Of a DNA stretch of 64,000 bases, positions 6,410 to 62,977 are shown one piece after another (position 1 is the first letter of the stretch; each line of letters starts with the position of its first letter). A model generated the notes under the pieces. It did no database searches. It worked only from the letters and a program-made list of their open reading frames with translations, and was not told where the DNA came from. The DNA lies in assembly GCA_016744065.1 (NCBI GenBank), contig JADGFA010000002.1:62001-126000 (forward strand). The letters run 5' to 3'. The stretch is from Gammaproteobacteria bacterium (GTDB taxonomy: Bacteria; Pseudomonadota; Gammaproteobacteria; SZUA-229). Position numbers and translations under genes: made by a program.

Positions 6410-7066
6410 ATGTCAGGAATGAAACGTATAGTTGTGATTAATACCAAAGGTGGCTGTGGTAAAACAACGGTTTCAACCAGTCTGGCCAGTTATTATGCAT
6501 CTAGAGGTATTAATACCGCACTATTTGATTATGATCCTCAAGGGTCAAGTATGCGCTGGTTGAAACTTCGTAACGACAGTATGTCTGATATATATGGTGT
6601 TGTCGCGCATAGAAATTCTGCCAAGGCGGTTACGATGAGCTGGCAGCTCAGGTTACCGCCTGAAACTGAACGAGTCATTATCGACACGCCTCCAGGCTTA
6701 AAAGGCCCAGAACTTAGAGAGCAATTAAAGGGGGTGGATAAAATATTAATACCCGTTTTACCTTCTCCGCTTGATATTTTTGCTACGGCCGATTTTATTC
6801 GTGATTTATTGCTGGATGTTAAAGTCAGGTTAAACCAGACTAGTATAGGCATTGTGGCAAATCGTGTCAGAAAGAATACGGTTGCTTTTCAATCACTTGA
6901 GCGCTTTTTAAGTTCATTAAATATTCCGGTAGTTGCTAGTTTAAGGGATACACAGAATTATTTACGAGCTACTGAGGAAGGTATGGGTATACATGAGTTA
7001 AAAGGTAAAAACGTGTACGTAGACAGAATGCACTGGAAGGCGGTTGCGGAATGGCTTGATAAGTGA
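6410..7066 (+). CDS. ParA/MinD-family ATPase (orphan)
   Basis: The frame is open from a TTG at 6395. I prefer ATG 6410 (MSGMKRIV) or ATG 6419, since the family begins just before the first beta strand. The deviant Walker A motif KGGCGKTT follows immediately; FDYDPQGSS (A') and VIIDTPPGL (Walker B region) follow. The length of about 218 residues fits small ParA/Soj-like cargo-positioning ATPases. There is no ParB or parS-like repeat nearby, so chromosome partition is unlikely; positioning of a protein cargo is more plausible. The unknown gene upstream is its likely operon partner. Confidence 0.85.
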   Translation: MSGMKRIVVINTKGGCGKTTVSTSLASYYASRGINTALFDYDPQGSSMRWLKLRNDSMSDIYGVVAHRNSAKAVTMSWQLRLPPETERVIIDTPPGLKGPELREQLKGVDKILIPVLPSPLDIFATADFIRDLLLDVKVRLNQTSIGIVANRVRKNTVAFQSLERFLSSLNIPVVASLRDTQNYLRATEEGMGIHELKGKNVYVDRMHWKAVAEWLDK

Positions 7067-7096
7067 GTACGTCTGAATATTACACAGGCTTAAATT

Positions 7097-7128
7097 AAGA
7101 GGCTCGCTTTAGGTGAGCCTCTTTCTAT
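7097..7128. terminator. Bidirectional intrinsic terminator
   Basis: A perfect 9-bp stem (AAGAGGCTC 7097-7105 with GAGCCTCTT 7115-7123) has a 9-nt loop and is followed by a T-rich run on the plus strand and preceded by an A-rich run. It sits between the convergent parA-like gene and the VPLPA-CTERM gene and can serve both. Confidence 0.8.
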
Positions 7129-7136
7129 TTTCGAGA

Positions 7137-7796
7137 TTAAATATTACCTGTATGGCGGAAAATACCCAGTCCCGCCAGTCCGGATAAAAATAAATATAAC
7201 GCTGCTGGTAAAGGAACGAGAACAGGTGCATTTAAGCCGATGGCATATGACATTAATGATGTTTCGTTACCTAAATTAACCTGAATATTATTTATACTCT
7301 GGTTCAAGTTAACATTGAAATCGTTCAGATCAAGAAAAATAACTGAAAGATCAGCCGTTCCTAAAGTGCCATTTGGTAATAATATGTCTGTTACCAGATA
7401 CTTTTCTCCATTTGGTCCAGGGTTTACAAATGGATCATCATTAACAAACAATTGTCTTGAGGTGATTGGGCCGCTATTAATACCATTGATATTGACAGAA
7501 ACCGTGTTATTAGCGGTAATAAAAAATAAGGCAAGATCATTTCCATTCTGATTTGACAGGGCTGTATTTTCAAAATTTAAAAAAACAGCTGCATCGATTG
7601 ATGTGCCTTTAATGTATGTGTTTACAAGAGAGTTTGTAATTGCTCCGTTGGTGTTTTCAAAAACAGAGCCAGTGAAGCTTGATGAGGTTGCGCCTGCGTC
7701 TGTGTCTAGTCCATATGGTCCAATACTAATAGGGGCTGCGAATGCTTGTGCAGAAAAAATAGCTGTTGCAGAAAGTAATAATCGTAATTTTTTCAT
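7137..7796 (-). CDS. Secreted protein with VPLPA-CTERM-like sorting tail
   Basis: The 219 residues start with a clear signal peptide (MKKLRLLLSATAIFSAQAFA) and end with VPLPAALYLFLSGLAGLGIF followed by a short tail. That is the VPLPA/PEP-CTERM-type signal recognised by exosortases. The body is Asn/Thr/Ser-rich and beta-like, as in many exosortase substrates. No exosortase gene is in the window. The tail ends RHTGNI and is less basic than usual. It lies 61 nt downstream of another small secreted-protein gene on the same strand and probably shares its transcript. Confidence 0.75.
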   Translation of the reverse strand: MKKLRLLLSATAIFSAQAFAAPISIGPYGLDTDAGATSSSFTGSVFENTNGAITNSLVNTYIKGTSIDAAVFLNFENTALSNQNGNDLALFFITANNTVSVNINGINSGPITSRQLFVNDDPFVNPGPNGEKYLVTDILLPNGTLGTADLSVIFLDLNDFNVNLNQSINNIQVNLGNETSLMSYAIGLNAPVLVPLPAALYLFLSGLAGLGIFRHTGNI

Positions 7797-7857
7797 TTTT
7801 ATTTCCCAAATTGCATATTATCAATACCTGGCGCTGGGTTGATAATTATTCCTTGCT

Positions 7858-8175
7858 TTAAAATTGATTAACGGGCGTTGTTGGTGTGACAACAGGTGCG
7901 ATAACTACGCTGGTTACCTGAGGGGCGTTAGGTGTTACTGGTGGAGCAGTGCGAAATGTGAGTATCGCTTCACGTAAAAAAGCAGAATTTTCATTAGGCC
8001 GAAAATTCACATCCGGTGTCTGGGCGGGGGGTGGCGTTACCTGAGCAACTGGCCCTGCTGCGGGTTGAATGCCTTCGGCCCATTCACCCCATGTGTATAC
8101 AGAATCCTGCTGAATTGCCATTGCTTGAATGGGCAATAATATTGCGAATGTAAATAAAATTGTTTTTTTCATCAT
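7858..8175 (-). CDS. Small secreted Pro-rich hypothetical protein
   Basis: The protein has 105 residues, a signal peptide ending IQAMA, and a mature chain rich in Pro, Thr and Val (PPPAQTP, APPVTPNAPQV, TPTTPV) with no Cys. I recognise no domain. It is the first gene of a probable two-gene transcript with the VPLPA-CTERM protein at 7137-7796, which suggests a cell-surface or extracellular-matrix role. That is inference from position and composition. Confidence 0.55.
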   Translation of the reverse strand: MMKKTILFTFAILLPIQAMAIQQDSVYTWGEWAEGIQPAAGPVAQVTPPPAQTPDVNFRPNENSAFLREAILTFRTAPPVTPNAPQVTSVVIAPVVTPTTPVNQF

Positions 8176-8590
8176 ATTTAAGACCTAAATTTTGTAATAA
8201 AAATACAGGCAAATCCAGTGCCACAAAAAATAAACAACATTTTAAACAAATGCTTAGGCTAGTTGATTATAAAATGTGGGTGATCCTTGTCTTGGGCGCT
8301 CCTTCCCATTGTAAGAGAATTATAATTATCGTGGAGCCTCTGTCCATACCCCATTTGAGTGGCTTATTAGAGGGGAATATCTAACTCATTGATTTTATAG
8401 GTGAAGTTTGAAATGTATTTGTCATTTTTCAGATGAATAGTGGTTTATATTCAGGCGCTCTATTGTAAATATTATCGACATGATGCACGGTTTATTGACG
8501 CTTTATATTTAAACAAAGAGAAATTGTCTTTTTCAGGTTTATCATGCTTATTTATATGCTTTAAGTGTACTAATAATGGTTTTTTTCAGG
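8176..8590. other. Intergenic region without a recognisable gene
   Basis: This 415-nt AT-rich segment lies upstream of the small secreted-protein gene and downstream of the TPR/beta-barrel gene, both on the minus strand. A 74-codon plus-strand frame at 8160-8384 has no ribosome-binding site and no protein-like composition. I see no strong hairpin with a T-run. It presumably holds the promoter of the 8175 gene. Confidence 0.5.
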
Positions 8591-9856
8591 TTAAAAGAAA
8601 TAGCGACGTAAATTGATTTCAAATATATTGCGATCATAGGTGAAATCATCCAGATTTGAGTCATTATCTGTAAATGTATACTGGGTATTTACAGTCCATG
8701 ACTTGAGAAATCCGCCGTGGAAGTCATGGCTTATACCCAATACAGCCAGTAACTCGGTTTCATTGCGTTTCTCTGTGTAACCTTTTGTGATGTCGGCCGC
8801 TTTATATCTGTAGTCACGGCTGCTTAATGTTAAATATGCTCGAGCATTTTCCCAGGCAGGTATCTGGCCACCGAAGTATATTTCACCACCAGTCGAATGG
8901 AGTGCACCATCTTTAGCGCCATTATTGTGATATTTAATGCCTGCCTGTAAGCCGATAGACTGATCAGTATAAAATTTGGCAATATCTATACCCCATACTG
9001 TCATAGTGCCGGTCAGACCTTTGTCTTCCTGTTGATCGTACTCACGGGCTGTCGTGGTATTTTCAAATGTGATCTCAAGGTCTTCCTGAATACTGTAGGT
9101 GTAAAGTGGGTTGATACCTGCGTATTTTGCATAATCGTCTTTGCCGAATATAAGCTTGTCCAGTTTAAAATTGAAGGCAGCACGCCAGCGCTTTTCTTCA
9201 GAAATGAAGGCAGGGCCTGTGCTAAGTGATAATACTGAGAGGTTAAATTCAGTATTATCAGATCCATATGCTTTGCTATAGGCTGTGGCCTGGGTTTGCC
9301 ATTCAAAGTCAACAATAGAGTTATTAATATGCATAGCCTGGCTGGCACGTGAGCGATGTGAATAGGTGAACATAAACTGCCCGCCGCTGCCATTTTCTTC
9401 GGATGATATATTGGTGTTGCCTGTTATATCTTTTCCTGGGCCCAGATTTATATTTGAATCAGTGAACATGCCTGCTGATATATACATGGATGATGTGGAG
9501 CGTTGGGCGGCTGTTTTGATATCACCAGATAACTGAGCCATATATGCGGTTACCGATAATTTAACTTCATCCGGAGTTTCGGGGTCATTTAAAACCTGAC
9601 TTAACTGATCTTTTGCATCTTCATAGCGGCGGGTTAGATGATAAGAAATGGCAAGCTCAAGGCGCGCGCGATTAAGGCTGGGCTGGTTGCTTAATATGGT
9701 TTCAAAGAGCTCAATAGACTTAAACAGCTCTCCATTTAAGCGATAACGCATTGCTTCATTAAATAAAACTTCTGGATCTACAGCCTCTTCAGCATAGGTG
9801 TTAGGCGAAGCTAATGCCATGTATAAACAAGCTGCCACCAGAATTTTCCTGATCAT
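8591..9856 (-). CDS. Outer-membrane protein with N-terminal TPR and C-terminal beta barrel (DUF560/Slam-like)
   Basis: The 421 residues begin with a signal peptide (MIRKILVAACLYMALASPNTYA). TPR-like helices follow at about 28-110 (LFKSIELFETILSNQPSLNRARLELAISYH is characteristic but spread over two helices). From about residue 125 comes a region of alternating aromatic beta strands ending in LRRYFF, the usual C-terminal aromatic signature of a beta barrel. This order matches surface lipoprotein assembly modifier-like (DUF560) proteins, which move lipoproteins or other proteins to the cell surface. The substrate is unknown. A plain TPR porin is the alternative. Confidence 0.65.
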   Translation of the reverse strand: MIRKILVAACLYMALASPNTYAEEAVDPEVLFNEAMRYRLNGELFKSIELFETILSNQPSLNRARLELAISYHLTRRYEDAKDQLSQVLNDPETPDEVKLSVTAYMAQLSGDIKTAAQRSTSSMYISAGMFTDSNINLGPGKDITGNTNISSEENGSGGQFMFTYSHRSRASQAMHINNSIVDFEWQTQATAYSKAYGSDNTEFNLSVLSLSTGPAFISEEKRWRAAFNFKLDKLIFGKDDYAKYAGINPLYTYSIQEDLEITFENTTTAREYDQQEDKGLTGTMTVWGIDIAKFYTDQSIGLQAGIKYHNNGAKDGALHSTGGEIYFGGQIPAWENARAYLTLSSRDYRYKAADITKGYTEKRNETELLAVLGISHDFHGGFLKSWTVNTQYTFTDNDSNLDDFTYDRNIFEINLRRYFF

Positions 9857-10093
9857 TTAAGTACTCTCAAAGTGATTTTGCGTGATATTGACGTTTTTTA
9901 TATATATTTACAAGGGAAAACGTACAGTTATTCCACCTGGTCGAGACTTATTCTGATTAAATAAGCCATTTATTAAATATAATTATCAGGTGTAAATGTT
10001 CTACAATTTGCCGTTAAGTTATTGTATTTGTAAGCTGCTCAAAGTGTGTCTGAGTATGTGTCTGGTTCATATTATTGTTAAGAGGAGGGTTAT

Positions 10094-10726
10094 TTGAGCT
10101 GTAAAAACAGATATTGCTTATACGGGTATATTTTTTTGTTTGTTTTGCTGCCTGAGGTTGTTCTTGCAGGACTTTTTGGGTATCAGTCAAATGAGCGTGA
10201 AAATTTAAAACTGTTTCCTCAATGGTTATCGGTTTTAGAACGTAATATTAAACAAAAGGCATTAGAAGGAAACTGTGAAAATAACAGGCTTGATCATTGT
10301 CATGTTAGAGACTGGTTGAGGTTTTTAAAAAGCATTCAGTCGCTTTCAAAAATGCAACAGATAAATAAAGTTAATTTATATGCTAATGAGCATGACTATC
10401 TTCTGGATATTGAGAATTACGGAGTAAAAGACTATTGGGCGACACCACGAGAGTTTTTATATAATAATGGTGATTGTGAAGATTACGCAATAACAAAAAT
10501 GCTATCCCTTAAGATGCTTGGTTTTAATATGCAGAGTATTAAGCTGGTGGTATTACAGGATACAAATTTAAAAATTCCACATGCGGTTTTAGCTTTATAT
10601 ATTAAGGACGATATATTAATAATGGATAATCAGGTAGACGAAGTTATTTCACATAAACATATTTTGCATTATGTTCCTGTATATGCCGTTAATGAAAAAA
10701 AGTGGTGGATGTTCCTGCCTCAATAA
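10094..10726 (+). CDS. LapG-type periplasmic transglutaminase-like cysteine protease (BTLCP)
   Basis: The 210 residues start at TTG 10094; a strong AGGAGG at 10083-10088, 5 nt upstream, decides this rare start. An N-terminal hydrophobic segment (YIFLFVLLPEVVLAG) is a likely signal peptide. The catalytic triad of the family is visible: Cys128 in NNGDCEDYA, His163 in IPHAVLAL and Asp178 in LIMDNQ. In known systems LapG cleaves the N-terminal region of giant biofilm adhesins (LapA type) and is held inactive by the c-di-GMP receptor LapD. The next gene, 34 nt downstream, encodes a membrane receptor with a dead HD-GYP domain, not a LapD. No adhesin gene is in the window. Confidence 0.88.
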   Translation: MSCKNRYCLYGYIFLFVLLPEVVLAGLFGYQSNERENLKLFPQWLSVLERNIKQKALEGNCENNRLDHCHVRDWLRFLKSIQSLSKMQQINKVNLYANEHDYLLDIENYGVKDYWATPREFLYNNGDCEDYAITKMLSLKMLGFNMQSIKLVVLQDTNLKIPHAVLALYIKDDILIMDNQVDEVISHKHILHYVPVYAVNEKKWWMFLPQ

Positions 10727-10760
10727 GAGGGTCTTTTAAAATTTAAATAAGTAATATTGT

Positions 10761-12782
10761 ATGAAAGTTAAAAATAATGCATTTAAAATAAAGTTCCCCC
10801 CCGTATTGGCAAGTGTATTTTTGGGCCTATTTATTGTAATAAGTTTATGGTTGATATTTGAGTATGCGGAAAAAGAAAAAAATCGTGATTTGACTAACTG
10901 GCAGTCACGTCTGGCGCTATTGGCTGAGATAAGATCGGCGGCTGTTGAAGACTTGATATGGAAGCAAAAAAAACAATTAAAAAAACTGGCTGAAAATACA
11001 AGTCTCAGGTTGTTTCTATCGGAGTATAATAATAGAGATAAAGTGAATGAAGTCGTATTGAGTGCAGTGCAGGGGCATGTGAGGAATTTGTTAAGGGCGA
11101 GCGCAGGAAGCTTTGGATTTCTGGAAAATATAACGGCTATTAAGAAAAACAGTTCTGGTGAGTATGGTCTTGCGGTACTGGATAAAAAGCAAATACTGGT
11201 TATGTCTACAAAAGGTTTTCCTGTCGATATTGAAGCGCATAAAGCTGTAGTTAAAAAAACATATAATGCAGCGAAAATACAGGTAATTGATCTGTATTCG
11301 GGTGAGAGCAAACAATCGGTCTATGGATATATTATGCCTGTTTTTCAGGTTCAGGACATTGAATTAATAGAGCCTGTAGGTGCAGTTATATTGTTATTGA
11401 ATCCGCAGAAAGATTTATACCCAATATTGAAAAACAGACAAAGTATAACCGGTTCAGATGAAAGTTTACTGGTGAGGCAGGAAGGTGCCAGTCTTGTTTA
11501 TATAAGCCCGATAAAAGAAGATTATAATTTATTTCATCGCCTTCCTGATAATAATAATCAACTGGCATCGTCGTATGCTTATCATAATCCAGGCGGTTTC
11601 AGGGAAGTTCAGGACTATCGAGGTAACAATGTGTTGGTTACCGGGCGAGAAGTTAAAGATACGCCCTGGAAACTGGTTCAGAAAATTTCAGCGTCTGAGG
11701 CGTTAGCTGAATCAAATAGCCATCAGACGTTTTTGTTAACAACATTTATCTTATGTGTTTTTTTTGTAGCAATGGCCTTTGTCGCAATTTGGCGGCATAG
11801 TACCAGTTTAAGATTACAGTCTTTGAGTAATGTGCTTGAGGCGCGGACTATTTTGCTCGATGCAGTTACCGATAACATAAAAGATAATATTATTTTACTG
11901 GATCAGAACTCAAAAATTATCTTTATGAATTCTGCGTTTTCACATTTATTGTCGATAGATATTGATGAAATAAAATCAAAACATATAACCAGTGTGTTAG
12001 GCAAGGAAACGGCAGAACGATTGATAAATAGTATATGTGCTGATACTAAAACCTGTGTTATGTCTTTGCAGATTGATTCCTGTGAACGGGTATATCATGT
12101 GGTCTCTACGCGACTGGTTTATGGTGAGCACCAAAGTGCTGTGTTATATGTGTTGCATGATATAAGTGAATTAAAACAGGAACAGGAAAAGCGTGAGCAA
12201 TTGGGGCAGGGTATCATTGGGACTCTGGTTAAAGCGGTGGATATGCATGATCCGTATTGCATAAATCATTCTGCACGCACCCGGGATGTTGCAATCGCGA
12301 TTGCTAAAGAAATGAATTTAACTGAGATGCAGTTAGAGTCGCTGGAAATGGCGGCTTTATTAGCAAATATAGGTAAGTTGTATGTTCCAAAGGAAATACT
12401 GACTAAAATGGAAGCGCTATCTGATAACGAATCAAAACAGTTGAGAAAACATATTGGGTTTGCTGTCGATATATTATCTGAGCTCCCTTTTAGTGGGCCT
12501 GTGGTTGATATTATTTCACAGAAAAGTGAGTTCCTTGACGGCAGCGGCTATCCAGAAGGGCTGGCAGGTAGTGACATTATGCTTGAATCGAGAATACTGG
12601 CTGTAGCAAATGCATTTGTCGCCATGGCTAGCTCACGGGCGTATCGTGAAGGGCGAGCGGTAAAAGAGGTGGTGGATATACTTCTGGAGCAATCTGAGTC
12701 ACATTACGATCGCCATGTTGTTGCTGCTTTATTTCATATTTCAGAGAATAAAGCAGACTGGAAAACGTGGCAGAGAACATAG
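10761..12782 (+). CDS. Membrane receptor with PAS and degenerate (catalytically dead) HD-GYP domain
   Basis: The 673 residues run as TM1 about 12-33, a periplasmic Cache-like domain of about 290 residues, TM2 about 324-344, PAS about 360-470 and an HD-GYP fold about 485-660. Every metal ligand expected in a phosphodiesterase is changed. The HD dyad is Ala535-Asn536 (AALLANIGKLYVP), the H-H-H-E block reads QKSE before LDGSGYPEGL, and the later Asp pair reads VANAFVAM. The GYP loop itself (GSGYPEGL) is intact. It is therefore predicted to bind, not cleave, c-di-GMP or a partner. It follows the LapG-type protease gene by 34 nt, consistent with one operon and a LapD-like job. That role is inferred. 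Confidence 0.85.
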   Translation: MKVKNNAFKIKFPPVLASVFLGLFIVISLWLIFEYAEKEKNRDLTNWQSRLALLAEIRSAAVEDLIWKQKKQLKKLAENTSLRLFLSEYNNRDKVNEVVLSAVQGHVRNLLRASAGSFGFLENITAIKKNSSGEYGLAVLDKKQILVMSTKGFPVDIEAHKAVVKKTYNAAKIQVIDLYSGESKQSVYGYIMPVFQVQDIELIEPVGAVILLLNPQKDLYPILKNRQSITGSDESLLVRQEGASLVYISPIKEDYNLFHRLPDNNNQLASSYAYHNPGGFREVQDYRGNNVLVTGREVKDTPWKLVQKISASEALAESNSHQTFLLTTFILCVFFVAMAFVAIWRHSTSLRLQSLSNVLEARTILLDAVTDNIKDNIILLDQNSKIIFMNSAFSHLLSIDIDEIKSKHITSVLGKETAERLINSICADTKTCVMSLQIDSCERVYHVVSTRLVYGEHQSAVLYVLHDISELKQEQEKREQLGQGIIGTLVKAVDMHDPYCINHSARTRDVAIAIAKEMNLTEMQLESLEMAALLANIGKLYVPKEILTKMEALSDNESKQLRKHIGFAVDILSELPFSGPVVDIISQKSEFLDGSGYPEGLAGSDIMLESRILAVANAFVAMASSRAYREGRAVKEVVDILLEQSESHYDRHVVAALFHISENKADWKTWQRT

Positions 12783-13078
12783 TATTGAATTAGTTGCCAG
12801 TTAAGCTTAAGGAGTGATATGTATGTCTGAACAGGAATTAAGCTTTATTGTGTGCCCTGAGCTTTAGTGCTGGCCCAGATGTCGTAAAACAACAGATTGG
12901 GTTGAGCCCAGAGTTTACGGCGAATTTACTATGGAGTGTTGGTGTTAGTATGTTTAACTAATACTATAAGCCCCGCAGCATATTTACAGGGTGTTTTTAG
13001 TGAAAAAATAAGTATATTAGTATTAACTGTTTGTTTTTTATTCAAATGACAGACATTATCCTATATTAGTAAAAATAA

Positions 13079-15193
13079 ATGAGCACAAGTCAGGAGCTTG
13101 CTACAGACATGTATGAATCTTTTTATGGGCTTACGGAAAAGCCATTTACATTATTGCCTGATCCGGATTATCTGTATCTGAGCCAAAAGCATCAGCGGGC
13201 GTTGACGCTTCTTGAATATAGCATGATGAACCAGGCTGGTTTTAGTGTTATATGTGGTGATACGGGTGCAGGTAAAACAACCCTGATTCGACGCCTCCTG
13301 GTTGGGCTGGGTGATGATACTAAAGTTGGTCTGATAACTAATACGCACCATGCGTTTGGTGAGCTGCTTAATTGGGTGCTTATGGCATTTGGCCTGGATG
13401 GTGAAGGCCAAAGTAAGGCGCAAATGCATCAGATGTTCATTCGTTTCTTAATTGAGCAGTATGCGCAGAAGAAACATACTGTTTTGATCGTCGACGAAGC
13501 CCAGAATATGAATGCAGATACATTGGAAGAGCTGCGCATGTTGTCCAATATTAATGCAGATAAAGATCAGGTATTACAGGTTATTCTTGCTGGGCAGCCG
13601 GCATTACGCGAGACGTTACGTCAACCTGAATTAATGCAGTTTGCGCAGCGTATAGCGGTAGATTATTATCTTGAGTCATTAAGTATTGAAGAAACTAATG
13701 CTTATATTCATCATCGCCTGAAAGTTGCCGGAACGGAAGCGTCCATTTTTACTGAAGCGGCTTGTGAAGCAATATATAAATACAGTGGTGGTACCCCTCG
13801 TTTAATTAATCTGCTATGTGATACAGCACTTGTATATGGTTTTGCCGAACAAAATAAAACGATTGGTGAGCAGCTGATACATGATGTTGTGAGCGAGCAG
13901 CATAGTAACAGTATTATCCCTGCATTTAATACGGGCCAGCCGGCTCAGGACTCAGTGTTTTCAGCTGACAATATAACGCAACAATCGATAAATCAGTCAA
14001 AAACAGAAATAGAGCAGAAAGCTAATGCACAAAGAACGGTTGATAAAAAACAGGAAGAAAAATTAGTTAGTGCAGAGCAGCAGGTAATTAAAAAAGATGT
14101 GGCTGAAATATCAAAAAAATTATTTCAGCAGGCGAGAGGTGTGGAGCAGCTTGTCCCTGTGGTTCATTCGGAATCTCAGGTGAATATAGAAAAAGTCCAT
14201 ACTCAGAGTGCAGCCATAGATGAATCAAATGTAAGGCCGATAAAAGCAACACGCCCGTCAGAAAGTAAAACGGATGAATTTAAAATAGAAGATGAAGGAG
14301 TACAGCCTGAGGGTGCAGTAGATTCTGAAGGAAACCTGGAAGAAGGTGTAAGCAGTAAAAGTTCATTTATAGATATTGATAAGCAGCCCCCTGAAGCAAG
14401 CATAGTTGATACGGATGCCGCGCCTCTGTATATGTCACAAAGAAAGTATGATGAGGATGTTTATCATCCTATGATACATATTGAAGAAGGCCCGGGAAAG
14501 GGGCTTAATATGATTATTATAGGTGTAGTGGGGGGGATGTTTATTGCGTCTTTGATAATGATGATTGCAGCCTGGATGATGTTTGGTTCAAGAGAGAACA
14601 CTAGCCAACAGGAAGTACGACAAAATGCGCGGCAGCAGCCACAATGGGAAGTGGAAAACCGAGAACTAAAAGCATTACAGAAAGAACGTGATGCTGCAAT
14701 AGCCGTAACACGGGCACTGGAAAGAGAGCGTGATGCCGCAATAACCACCGCCCGGGTACAGGAAGAAATACGTGCTGCTGAAATGCGTGCCGCAGAAATA
14801 TTAGCAGCACAGGAGCAGCGGGCGGAAGTAAAATTAACGCGGGCGAAAGCACGTATCAGAGAGGCAGAACGAGCTGAATCCAGGGCACTGGTTCGTGAGC
14901 GTGAGATGCAGCGCAAGGCGGAAAGAAAAGAGGCTGAATTAAAAAGTGAGCGACTGAATATGTTTCATAAGGAGCAGGCTCGTTTAGAAGTGCTGGTTGT
15001 CGAAAAGGAAATGTCAGCCCGGCGATTACAGGCAAAACAGGTCGAGCAGAAAGAAGTAAAAGAAAAGCCTGTTGAAGAGGCAATAGTTGAGCCAGATGTT
15101 AAAAGCAAAATTAAAGAAAAGGCAAAAAAAAGATTTTCATCTAACCCCTGTAATAGCCCTTCTGCGAAATTCCTTTCAACATGTAAAAAATAA
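13079..15193 (+). CDS. ExeA/GspA-like AAA ATPase with one TM helix and long C-terminal coiled coil
   Basis: The protein has 704 residues. The family usually begins at MYESFYGLTEKPF, which here is ATG 13109, so the first ten residues may not be translated. The ATPase domain (to about 270) has Walker A GDTGAGKTT and Walker B VLIVDEAQNM, then SGGTPRLINLLCD, the hallmark of ExeA/GspA and exosortase-locus ATPases. A low-complexity linker follows, one TM helix near 475-500 (IIIGVVGGMFIASLIMMIAAW), then about 150 residues of Ala/Arg/Glu-rich heptad-like coiled coil. The family energises assembly of envelope complexes. No secretin or exosortase is adjacent, so the partner is unknown. Confidence 0.8.
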   Translation: MSTSQELATDMYESFYGLTEKPFTLLPDPDYLYLSQKHQRALTLLEYSMMNQAGFSVICGDTGAGKTTLIRRLLVGLGDDTKVGLITNTHHAFGELLNWVLMAFGLDGEGQSKAQMHQMFIRFLIEQYAQKKHTVLIVDEAQNMNADTLEELRMLSNINADKDQVLQVILAGQPALRETLRQPELMQFAQRIAVDYYLESLSIEETNAYIHHRLKVAGTEASIFTEAACEAIYKYSGGTPRLINLLCDTALVYGFAEQNKTIGEQLIHDVVSEQHSNSIIPAFNTGQPAQDSVFSADNITQQSINQSKTEIEQKANAQRTVDKKQEEKLVSAEQQVIKKDVAEISKKLFQQARGVEQLVPVVHSESQVNIEKVHTQSAAIDESNVRPIKATRPSESKTDEFKIEDEGVQPEGAVDSEGNLEEGVSSKSSFIDIDKQPPEASIVDTDAAPLYMSQRKYDEDVYHPMIHIEEGPGKGLNMIIIGVVGGMFIASLIMMIAAWMMFGSRENTSQQEVRQNARQQPQWEVENRELKALQKERDAAIAVTRALERERDAAITTARVQEEIRAAEMRAAEILAAQEQRAEVKLTRAKARIREAERAESRALVREREMQRKAERKEAELKSERLNMFHKEQARLEVLVVEKEMSARRLQAKQVEQKEVKEKPVEEAIVEPDVKSKIKEKAKKRFSSNPCNSPSAKFLSTCKK

Positions 15194-61819: not shown

Positions 61820-62977
61820 ATGTCTAAAAATAATTCTATAGATCAGCTAGATGCTATTAGTGCAAGTACGCTAGCGAGCTTCTTTGTCAATTTTACTTCA
61901 TCTCAGCGGCAGATGGAGCAGTCTTTACTAATGCTTGAAATGTCTCCGCATGATAATGAGTTAATATTAGAGCTACAACAAGGTGTCGAGTTAATTCAGC
62001 AATCGCTGCAGGATGTCGGCCTTGAAAATATAGAGCCATTAACCGTTAGTCTGAATGGCTTGTTGCAGCAGGTCATATTAAAAAACCTCACCTTTGAAAC
62101 ATTACTGAGTGATTTAATTCTTCTAGCAGTTAATGATATTAAAATCGTAATGGAAAAAATAATTGATGGTGAAGATCGATGTGTTTTGTTAACAAGAATG
62201 CCAAGAATTTGTGAAAGTATTGATGCAATAGGAACTGCTGATGAATTAAATCGAGATACAGTTATAAGGGATGCTTTATTATTGCTTGATCCGAGTATAG
62301 AAATTATTGAAACCAGTATTTCTAGAAGTGATTCATTAATTAATTTATTTTCAAAAGAAATGCCAAATGAAGAAGAGCTTGCAGCTTATGGAGTTGAAGA
62401 GAGTGACGATTTTATTTTCTTTCGTGCATTGGTTGAGCCTTTAGAAACGCGTGCCAATTATTGGCGAGGTCGTGCTCATCGTATGTTACGTCTAGCTCTT
62501 AAAATGAATGACCAGGCAGGCAGGCCCGTTAACCCTAATCAATTGGCAGCAGCTGTTTATATGCATGATGCTGGTATGGCTTTATTGCCTTTAGATATTA
62601 TTAATTGTGAAGATAAGCTATCTGATGAGCAGCTAGAAAAAATGCAGCAGCACCCTGTTATTGGTTACGAACTAATGCGTTATATGAAAACCTGGCGTGA
62701 AGCTTCGTTCATTGTCCTGCAACATCATGAGCAGGTCGATGGTGGAGGCTACCCTTATGGGTTGAGTGATAAGGATATTTGCGATGGAGCAAAAATACTG
62801 GCTATTGTTGATGCTGTAGATGCCAGAACGCATGAACGTGCATATGCTACTTTATTAAAAAGGCCATTGCTTCGAGCCGCTATTGAACTGGGGCAAAGTG
62901 AAGGTATTCAATTTAGTGAAAAGTGGATTGCTGTATTTAAAGATGTGTTTCAGGAGTTAAGAAAACTAAATATTTAA
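61820..62977 (+). CDS. HD-GYP domain c-di-GMP phosphodiesterase
   Basis: The 385 residues consist of an N-terminal helical domain of about 200 residues without a recognised fold and a C-terminal HD-GYP domain. All metal ligands are visible: His220, His249-Asp250 (VYMHDAGMALLP), QHHEQVDGGGYPYGL, and the Asp pair in ILAIVDAVDAR. It should cleave c-di-GMP to pGpG/GMP. GGGYP replaces the more usual GSGYP. The strong ribosome site suggests good translation. It contrasts with the dead HD-GYP protein at 10.8 kb. Confidence 0.92.
   Translation: MSKNNSIDQLDAISASTLASFFVNFTSSQRQMEQSLLMLEMSPHDNELILELQQGVELIQQSLQDVGLENIEPLTVSLNGLLQQVILKNLTFETLLSDLILLAVNDIKIVMEKIIDGEDRCVLLTRMPRICESIDAIGTADELNRDTVIRDALLLLDPSIEIIETSISRSDSLINLFSKEMPNEEELAAYGVEESDDFIFFRALVEPLETRANYWRGRAHRMLRLALKMNDQAGRPVNPNQLAAAVYMHDAGMALLPLDIINCEDKLSDEQLEKMQQHPVIGYELMRYMKTWREASFIVLQHHEQVDGGGYPYGLSDKDICDGAKILAIVDAVDARTHERAYATLLKRPLLRAAIELGQSEGIQFSEKWIAVFKDVFQELRKLNI

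Follow-up and report, generated by a model that had tools for sequence, protein, structure and literature searches.

The question raised by this locus is how a LapG-type periplasmic protease is controlled when the membrane receptor encoded next to it carries an HD-GYP domain, and which protein this protease would cleave. The locus is located in a 64,000-nucleotide stretch of a gammaproteobacterial genome, to be referred to as the window (Table 1). A sequence-only reading of this DNA had proposed that the receptor works instead of LapD, as an analogue built on a different c-di-GMP-binding fold.

Table 1. Features of the protease–receptor locus, in window coordinates.
Feature	Position	Strand	Basis or remark
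LapG-like (DvhG-type) periplasmic cysteine protease, Peptidase_C93	10094..10726	+	PF06035; triad and calcium motif intact
DvhD-like receptor TM-dCache-TM-PAS-HD-GYP, catalytically dead	10761..12782	+	DvhD sequence and fold match
Slam/T11SS-like outer-membrane protein, N-terminal TPR helices and 14-strand barrel	8591..9856	-	AlphaFold2, TPR_Slam
Small exported Pro-rich protein, 105 aa, candidate protease substrate	7858..8175	-	Conserved, adjoining the pair
Conserved segment DSVYTWGEWAEGIQPAAG	8053..8106	-	Proposed cleavage site PA↓AG at 8053-8064
VPLPA-CTERM exported protein	7137..7796	-	TIGR03370 26.5 bits, cut-off 25.35; conserved module member in the family
ATPase similar to XrtA/PEP-CTERM-associated ATPase	13079..15193	+	TIGR03015 297 bits, cut-off 324.5

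The protease and its receptor

The open reading frames of the protease and the receptor are exactly 34 nt apart, as had been read from the sequence. At each of the 23 family loci whose upstream sequence is complete, the protease gene is immediately followed by the receptor gene, and the same order is seen at a further family locus that is broken by a contig end. The family was sampled with 54 genomes, and the order-level sample consists of the same 54.

The protease belongs to Peptidase_C93/BTLCP (66 bits, cut-off 27), in agreement with its earlier assignment to the LapG type. Its catalytic residues Cys128, His163 and Asp178 and the GDCED calcium motif are invariant or nearly so among 24 aligned C93 proteins. 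Canonical LapG shares these catalytic and calcium motifs but belongs to a different clade. In the protease tree, the window protease is located outside the group (100/100) that holds two solved LapGs and the LapG encoded on contig C54 of the same genome. With the LapG model NF045674, the window protease scores 78 bits and the C54 LapG 203 bits, and the cut-off of 320 is reached by neither. A Peptidase_C93 protein (209 bits) of a family genome without the pair (L134, genome G012) forms a very long branch in this tree, as a different kind of C93 protein.

The receptor is 673 residues long. Pfam recognizes a PAS domain and an HD-GYP domain (HD_5, 142 bits), and the AlphaFold2 model (pLDDT 80.5) shows a long helix (residues 13–77), an alpha/beta domain, another long helix (residues 316–372), the PAS domain and the HD-GYP domain. 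The periplasmic part is similar to dCache domains in a Foldseek search, the best match being DvhD (9rc2), which ranks above the other dCache domains listed. This is the architecture described before, a two-TM receptor with a periplasmic domain, a PAS and an HD-GYP.

In the HD-GYP domain, xHDxGK is replaced by LANIGK, the HHE motif by QKSE, and VADxF by VANAF, with GSGYP intact as noted earlier. The lost motifs are fixed across the family in the alignment, and are therefore not sequencing or chance effects. The statement that all metal ligands are lost is borne out at these three motifs but is slightly too strong, since His503 (in HSxRT) is invariant in the family and His564 (in LRKH) is present in the window copy, although it is replaced in about half of the relatives. 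Both positions are metal ligands in active HD-GYPs. A second HD-GYP-type open reading frame is found at 61820–62977 (+ strand) of the window (HD_5, 72.8 bits), where the HHE and GYP-type motifs are kept.

Relationship to DvhD and to the canonical Lap system

DvhD of Desulfovibrio vulgaris Hildenborough binds c-di-GMP without hydrolyzing it and controls the LapG-like protease DvhG; its structure has been solved, and it has been tested and reported as a functional analogue of LapD (Font et al. 2026, PMC13090378). Among solved structures, DvhD (9rc0) is the best sequence match of the window receptor, with an E value of 2.6e-43, followed by another HD-GYP at 7.8e-22. The best fold matches are likewise to DvhD, for PAS/HD-GYP (9rc0), HD-GYP with c-di-GMP (9rbz) and dCache (9rc2). 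In a receptor tree with several long branches and a narrow sample of active HD-GYPs, the window family clusters with DvhD and with relatives from Alpha- and Deltaproteobacteria (98/93), separate from the other HD-GYPs of the genome.

The window receptor is homologous to DvhD over all domains, and the two loci share their arrangement, with a LapG-like protease gene followed by the gene of a TM-dCache-TM-PAS-HD-GYP receptor with dead metal motifs. These motifs are SQ for HD and MN for HH in DvhD, and AN, KS and VANAF in the window receptor. Most of the c-di-GMP contacts of DvhD are kept. In the canonical site, six of the eight residues are the same (Tyr523, Leu577, Tyr621, Met646, Arg650 and Tyr652), with Lys582 changed to Ser and Glu668 to Gln. 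The bridging site retains one of its three residues, Pro567, with Lys520 changed to His and Arg569 to Glu. Leu577, Tyr621, Met646, Arg650 and Tyr652 are kept in 29–30 of the 30 beta- and gammaproteobacterial members. Judged by this homology, the window pair is probably a DvhG/DvhD-type switch, and its receptor may bind c-di-GMP.

There are also differences from DvhG/DvhD, beyond the changed residues of the c-di-GMP sites. DvhG has a membrane anchor and a long linker, whereas the window protease has only a plain N-terminal leader. Neither a type I secretion system (T1SS) nor a large adhesin with an N-terminal retention domain was found at the pair's locus, which has a Slam-like barrel and a PAAG protein instead. 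Moreover, the window pair coexists with a canonical LapD/LapG.

The latter is part of a complete canonical Lap island on C54, with genes for a TolC-OmpA protein, LapG, LapD, the T1SS ATPase, the T1SS adaptor, a regulator and a LapA-like adhesin. This LapD matches LapD_MoxY_N with 118 bits, and its top NCBIfam model is LapD (332 bits). The adhesin has a LapA retention module and the site ELEPTAAG, and is the only adhesin above the retention-module cut-off. The presence of this genuine LapD, which comes with a LapG, a T1SS and an adhesin, refutes "instead of LapD" as a statement about this genome. The LapA-like adhesin with a LapG site that the sequence-only reading had proposed to look for is likewise present in the genome, on C54, but not at the pair's locus.

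On the other hand, the C54 LapD does not refute the analogue itself, as the two proteases are in different clades and most of the pair-bearing relatives have no LapD_MoxY_N match. The receptor is found in 29 of the 54 family genomes and a LapD_MoxY_N match in 6 of the 54. With so few matches, most of the receptor-bearing genomes show no such switch other than the Dvh-type pair. The central idea of an analogue on another c-di-GMP-binding fold is therefore right, in that the receptor is homologous to DvhD, but it has already been published for another phylum (PMC13090378). Gammaproteobacterial DvhD/DvhG pairs may already be included in the supplement of that paper. What is new here is the neighborhood, in which the pair is linked with a Slam-like exporter and a PAAG protein.

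As in the LapA/LapG/LapD system of Pseudomonas fluorescens, the C93 protease of the window adjoins a membrane receptor whose c-di-GMP enzyme domain is degenerate, and the candidate substrate has a [T/A/P]AAG-type site. Unlike LapD, however, the window receptor is dCache-PAS-HD-GYP; a LapD_MoxY_N-HAMP-GGDEF-EAL receptor is absent at the window locus and present on C54. The window locus also differs from the LapA system in having no retention-module adhesin and no T1SS. DvhD-type receptors reach well beyond the sulfate reducers, into Gamma-, Beta- and Alphaproteobacteria and Desulfobulbaceae. A genome of another family (G297) has a LapG/LapD-like pair in addition to the Dvh-type module. DvhD may have replaced a LapD, as has been suggested (PMC13090378), but since DvhD-type receptors coexist with canonical LapD, it does not have to stand in for one that was lost.

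A Slam-like barrel and a conserved PAAG segment

At the family loci, a conserved set of genes is divergent from the pair, encoding the TPR and barrel protein, the small Pro-rich protein and the VPLPA-CTERM protein. The AlphaFold2 model of the window barrel protein (pLDDT 87.7) has TPR-like helices and 14 long strands. We take TPR helices with a barrel to be the architecture of Slam/T11SS proteins. TPR_Slam is matched by all 24 members of the barrel family (E≤0.01) and SlipAM by 8 of them. The window copy, with 32.5 bits for TPR_Slam (cut-off 35.2) and no SlipAM match, is under the Pfam cut-off and is therefore termed Slam-like. The best 50 PDB matches in a fold search are porins and other barrels, with none labeled Slam among them, and as a result the Slam assignment rests on Pfam and the architecture. 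The Slam-like barrel adjoins the pair in gammaproteobacterial, Rhodocyclaceae and Desulfurivibrio loci, while the other neighbors differ.

The barrel gene is separated from that of the small protein by a gap of 415 nt (8176–8590, - strand). A promoter-like site, TGGACA-16-TATAAT (11/12), is located at 8346–8319 in this gap, in a region whose total of promoter-like matches does not exceed that of shuffled sequences. This site suggests that the PAAG and VPLPA-CTERM genes may have their own promoter. A search for known RNA elements at 7000–13100 of the window found none.

Conservation of the small protein is concentrated in a near-invariant segment, DSVxxWGxW...PAAG. The PAAG is present in 16 of 17 relatives and is PSAG in the other one, and it matches the consensus for LapG and DvhG, which cut between the alanines of [T/A/P]AAG (PMC13090378). 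The 54 family genomes were searched with a DNA pattern for WGxWx5PAAG, and with the reversed pattern as control. Exactly one match each was found in 23 genomes, and none with the control. Of the 30 pair-bearing genomes, 23 have the pattern, against none of the 24 others (Fisher p 2.7e-9, with relatedness ignored). Among the seven pair-bearing genomes without the pattern, one has PSAG and several have cut contigs. The tetrapeptide consensus [T/A/P]AAG is also found in three other open reading frames of the window, one of which is a shadow frame of the barrel gene.

When 369 genomes drawn evenly from the class were searched, the pattern matched in nine that do not belong to the family, and only in G297 and G152 is the match in a large exported protein. 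The protease-family profile detects a Dvh-type protease in these two genomes but not in the other seven; the protease and the motif protein of G152 are encoded on separate contigs. A chance origin of the motif was considered and rejected; the matches of these seven are in no exported motif protein, three being in short open reading frames and four out of frame.

The segment also occurs near the N-terminus of exported proteins of 385–417 residues in a Rhodocyclaceae locus (L059) and in G297 (L179), whose genes adjoin the Slam-like barrel and the protease–receptor pair. The C-terminal part of both proteins passes TbpB_B_D (27.2 and 27.7 bits, cut-off 26), the domain that forms the barrel in known T11SS cargo (PMC12282271). 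The motif protein of G152 (L180) is homologous to these two and has no Pfam match. In a profile comparison, the small protein of the window is similar to these larger proteins, with the match (97%) confined to the 26 motif columns. The VPLPA-CTERM protein was considered as a split-off cargo domain, but its profile gave no match to the TbpB_B_D cargoes. In the family genome G014, a further large exported protein carries the motif in a weaker form, EDSAYQWGRWAVLSPSAGG.

The locus is therefore similar to T11SS loci (Slam, DUF560; PMC8406197, PMC12282271) in that a TPR and barrel outer-membrane protein is encoded beside an exported protein, and TbpB_B_D cargo is found in the two relatives. It differs in that the barrel is distant from Slam in sequence and the candidate cargo of the window has no TbpB_B_D. 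As the motif protein of the window itself has neither this domain nor a known cargo fold, it can only be guessed that the barrel exports it. Most T11SS outer-membrane proteins are without known cargo (PMC12282271). LapG and HD-GYP are mentioned in neither of the two T11SS papers, and a literature search by title and abstract, with subscription journals mostly outside its scope, found no link between a LapG-type protease and T11SS or Slam.

Proposed control of release and its rivals

The reading that we favor, at somewhat better than even probability, is a Dvh-type switch that gates the proteolytic release of a Slam-type cargo by c-di-GMP through the PAAG segment. At high c-di-GMP, the nucleotide would be bound by the dead HD-GYP domain, and the signal would pass through the stalk, the PAS domain and the transmembrane helices to the periplasmic dCache domain, which would restrain the protease. 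A fall in c-di-GMP would free it. The substrate would most likely be the divergently encoded small exported protein, not a T1SS adhesin, with DSVYTWGEWAEGIQPAAGPVAQ as the candidate cleavage segment, cut at PA↓AG within DSVxxWGxW...PAAG. Proteins that are exported by the barrel and carry the tag would be kept at the cell at high c-di-GMP and released at low c-di-GMP.

As the same segment heads a TbpB_B_D protein beside the barrel elsewhere, it is probably a retention and cleavage tag for barrel-exported proteins. In its sequence distribution, the motif resembles a portable tag accompanying the protease–receptor pair and the Slam-like barrel. The chances are close to balanced that DSVxxWGxW...PAAG is indeed a portable N-terminal tag through which a c-di-GMP receptor and a LapG-type protease control Slam/T11SS-like release, separately from the coexisting canonical Lap system. 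If so, T1SS (LapA) and type Vb (CdrA) would be joined by a third route of secretion that LapG-type proteases control. The precedent of CdrA/LapG in Pseudomonas aeruginosa (PMC4694147) is similar in that a LapG-type protease controls a non-T1SS substrate, but here the exporter would be a Slam-like TPR barrel, the candidate substrate is unrelated and has its proposed site near the N-terminus, and the receptor is different. With a candidate substrate and cut site named, the link between c-di-GMP and a Slam/T11SS-like exporter is directly testable.

Alternatively, the segment could serve the Slam-like barrel as a signal for docking or export and not be a protease site, with the protease and the receptor acting elsewhere. 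It is always near the N-terminus of exported proteins encoded beside the barrel, and the conserved tryptophans ahead of PAAG exceed the known protease consensus. We nevertheless consider this unlikely, because PAAG is the most constant part of the segment, fits the LapG consensus with a single PSAG exception, and in different families the motif is found where the protease is. An ordinary second Lap/Dvh switch, in which the window protease would act on the C54 adhesin as a second c-di-GMP input and the PAAG protein would be incidental, appears quite unlikely. The genome does encode an adhesin with a retention module and PTAAG, and LapA-type peptides are cut in vitro by DvhG (PMC13090378), but this adhesin has its own LapG and LapD adjoining it, most pair-bearing family genomes lack LapD, and this reading would not account for how closely the motif and the pair occur together.

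For the family's own small protein, which is short, Pro-rich and without a recognizable effector domain, a role as a pseudo-substrate or competitor that occupies the protease could be envisaged in place of release. This is improbable in our judgment, as a full T11SS-type cargo carries this segment near its N-terminus in two other lineages, and one family genome encodes a large protein in which the motif recurs in weaker form. There is very little probability, finally, that the HD-GYP domain no longer binds c-di-GMP and that the receptor answers only to a periplasmic dCache ligand or through its PAS domain. The changes at Lys582, Glu668 and both polar residues of the bridging site would be consistent with such a relic, which, however, would not need the five canonical-site residues that are kept almost throughout the beta- and gammaproteobacterial members.

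Several features of the wider neighborhood lie beside this proposal. The ATPase gene downstream of the receptor encodes a long charged C-terminal part and is found beside the pair in close relatives only (16 loci); taken with the VPLPA-CTERM protein, this ATPase points to a possible link with an exosortase. The barrel and the PAAG protein were not found at the alphaproteobacterial loci, and these relatives likely have a different substrate. The protease and receptor genes are divergent in three of them (L066, L068 and L074), and a sugar-transferase gene is located nearby in L066, L071 and L073. Two genes that precede the pair in L062 and have homologues in L065 had been suspected by their position to be T1SS parts, but they encode a PilS-like kinase and an NtrC-like regulator. 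In both loci, which are Delta- and Desulfurivibrio-assigned, they directly precede the protease–receptor pair, and possibly provide its transcriptional control.
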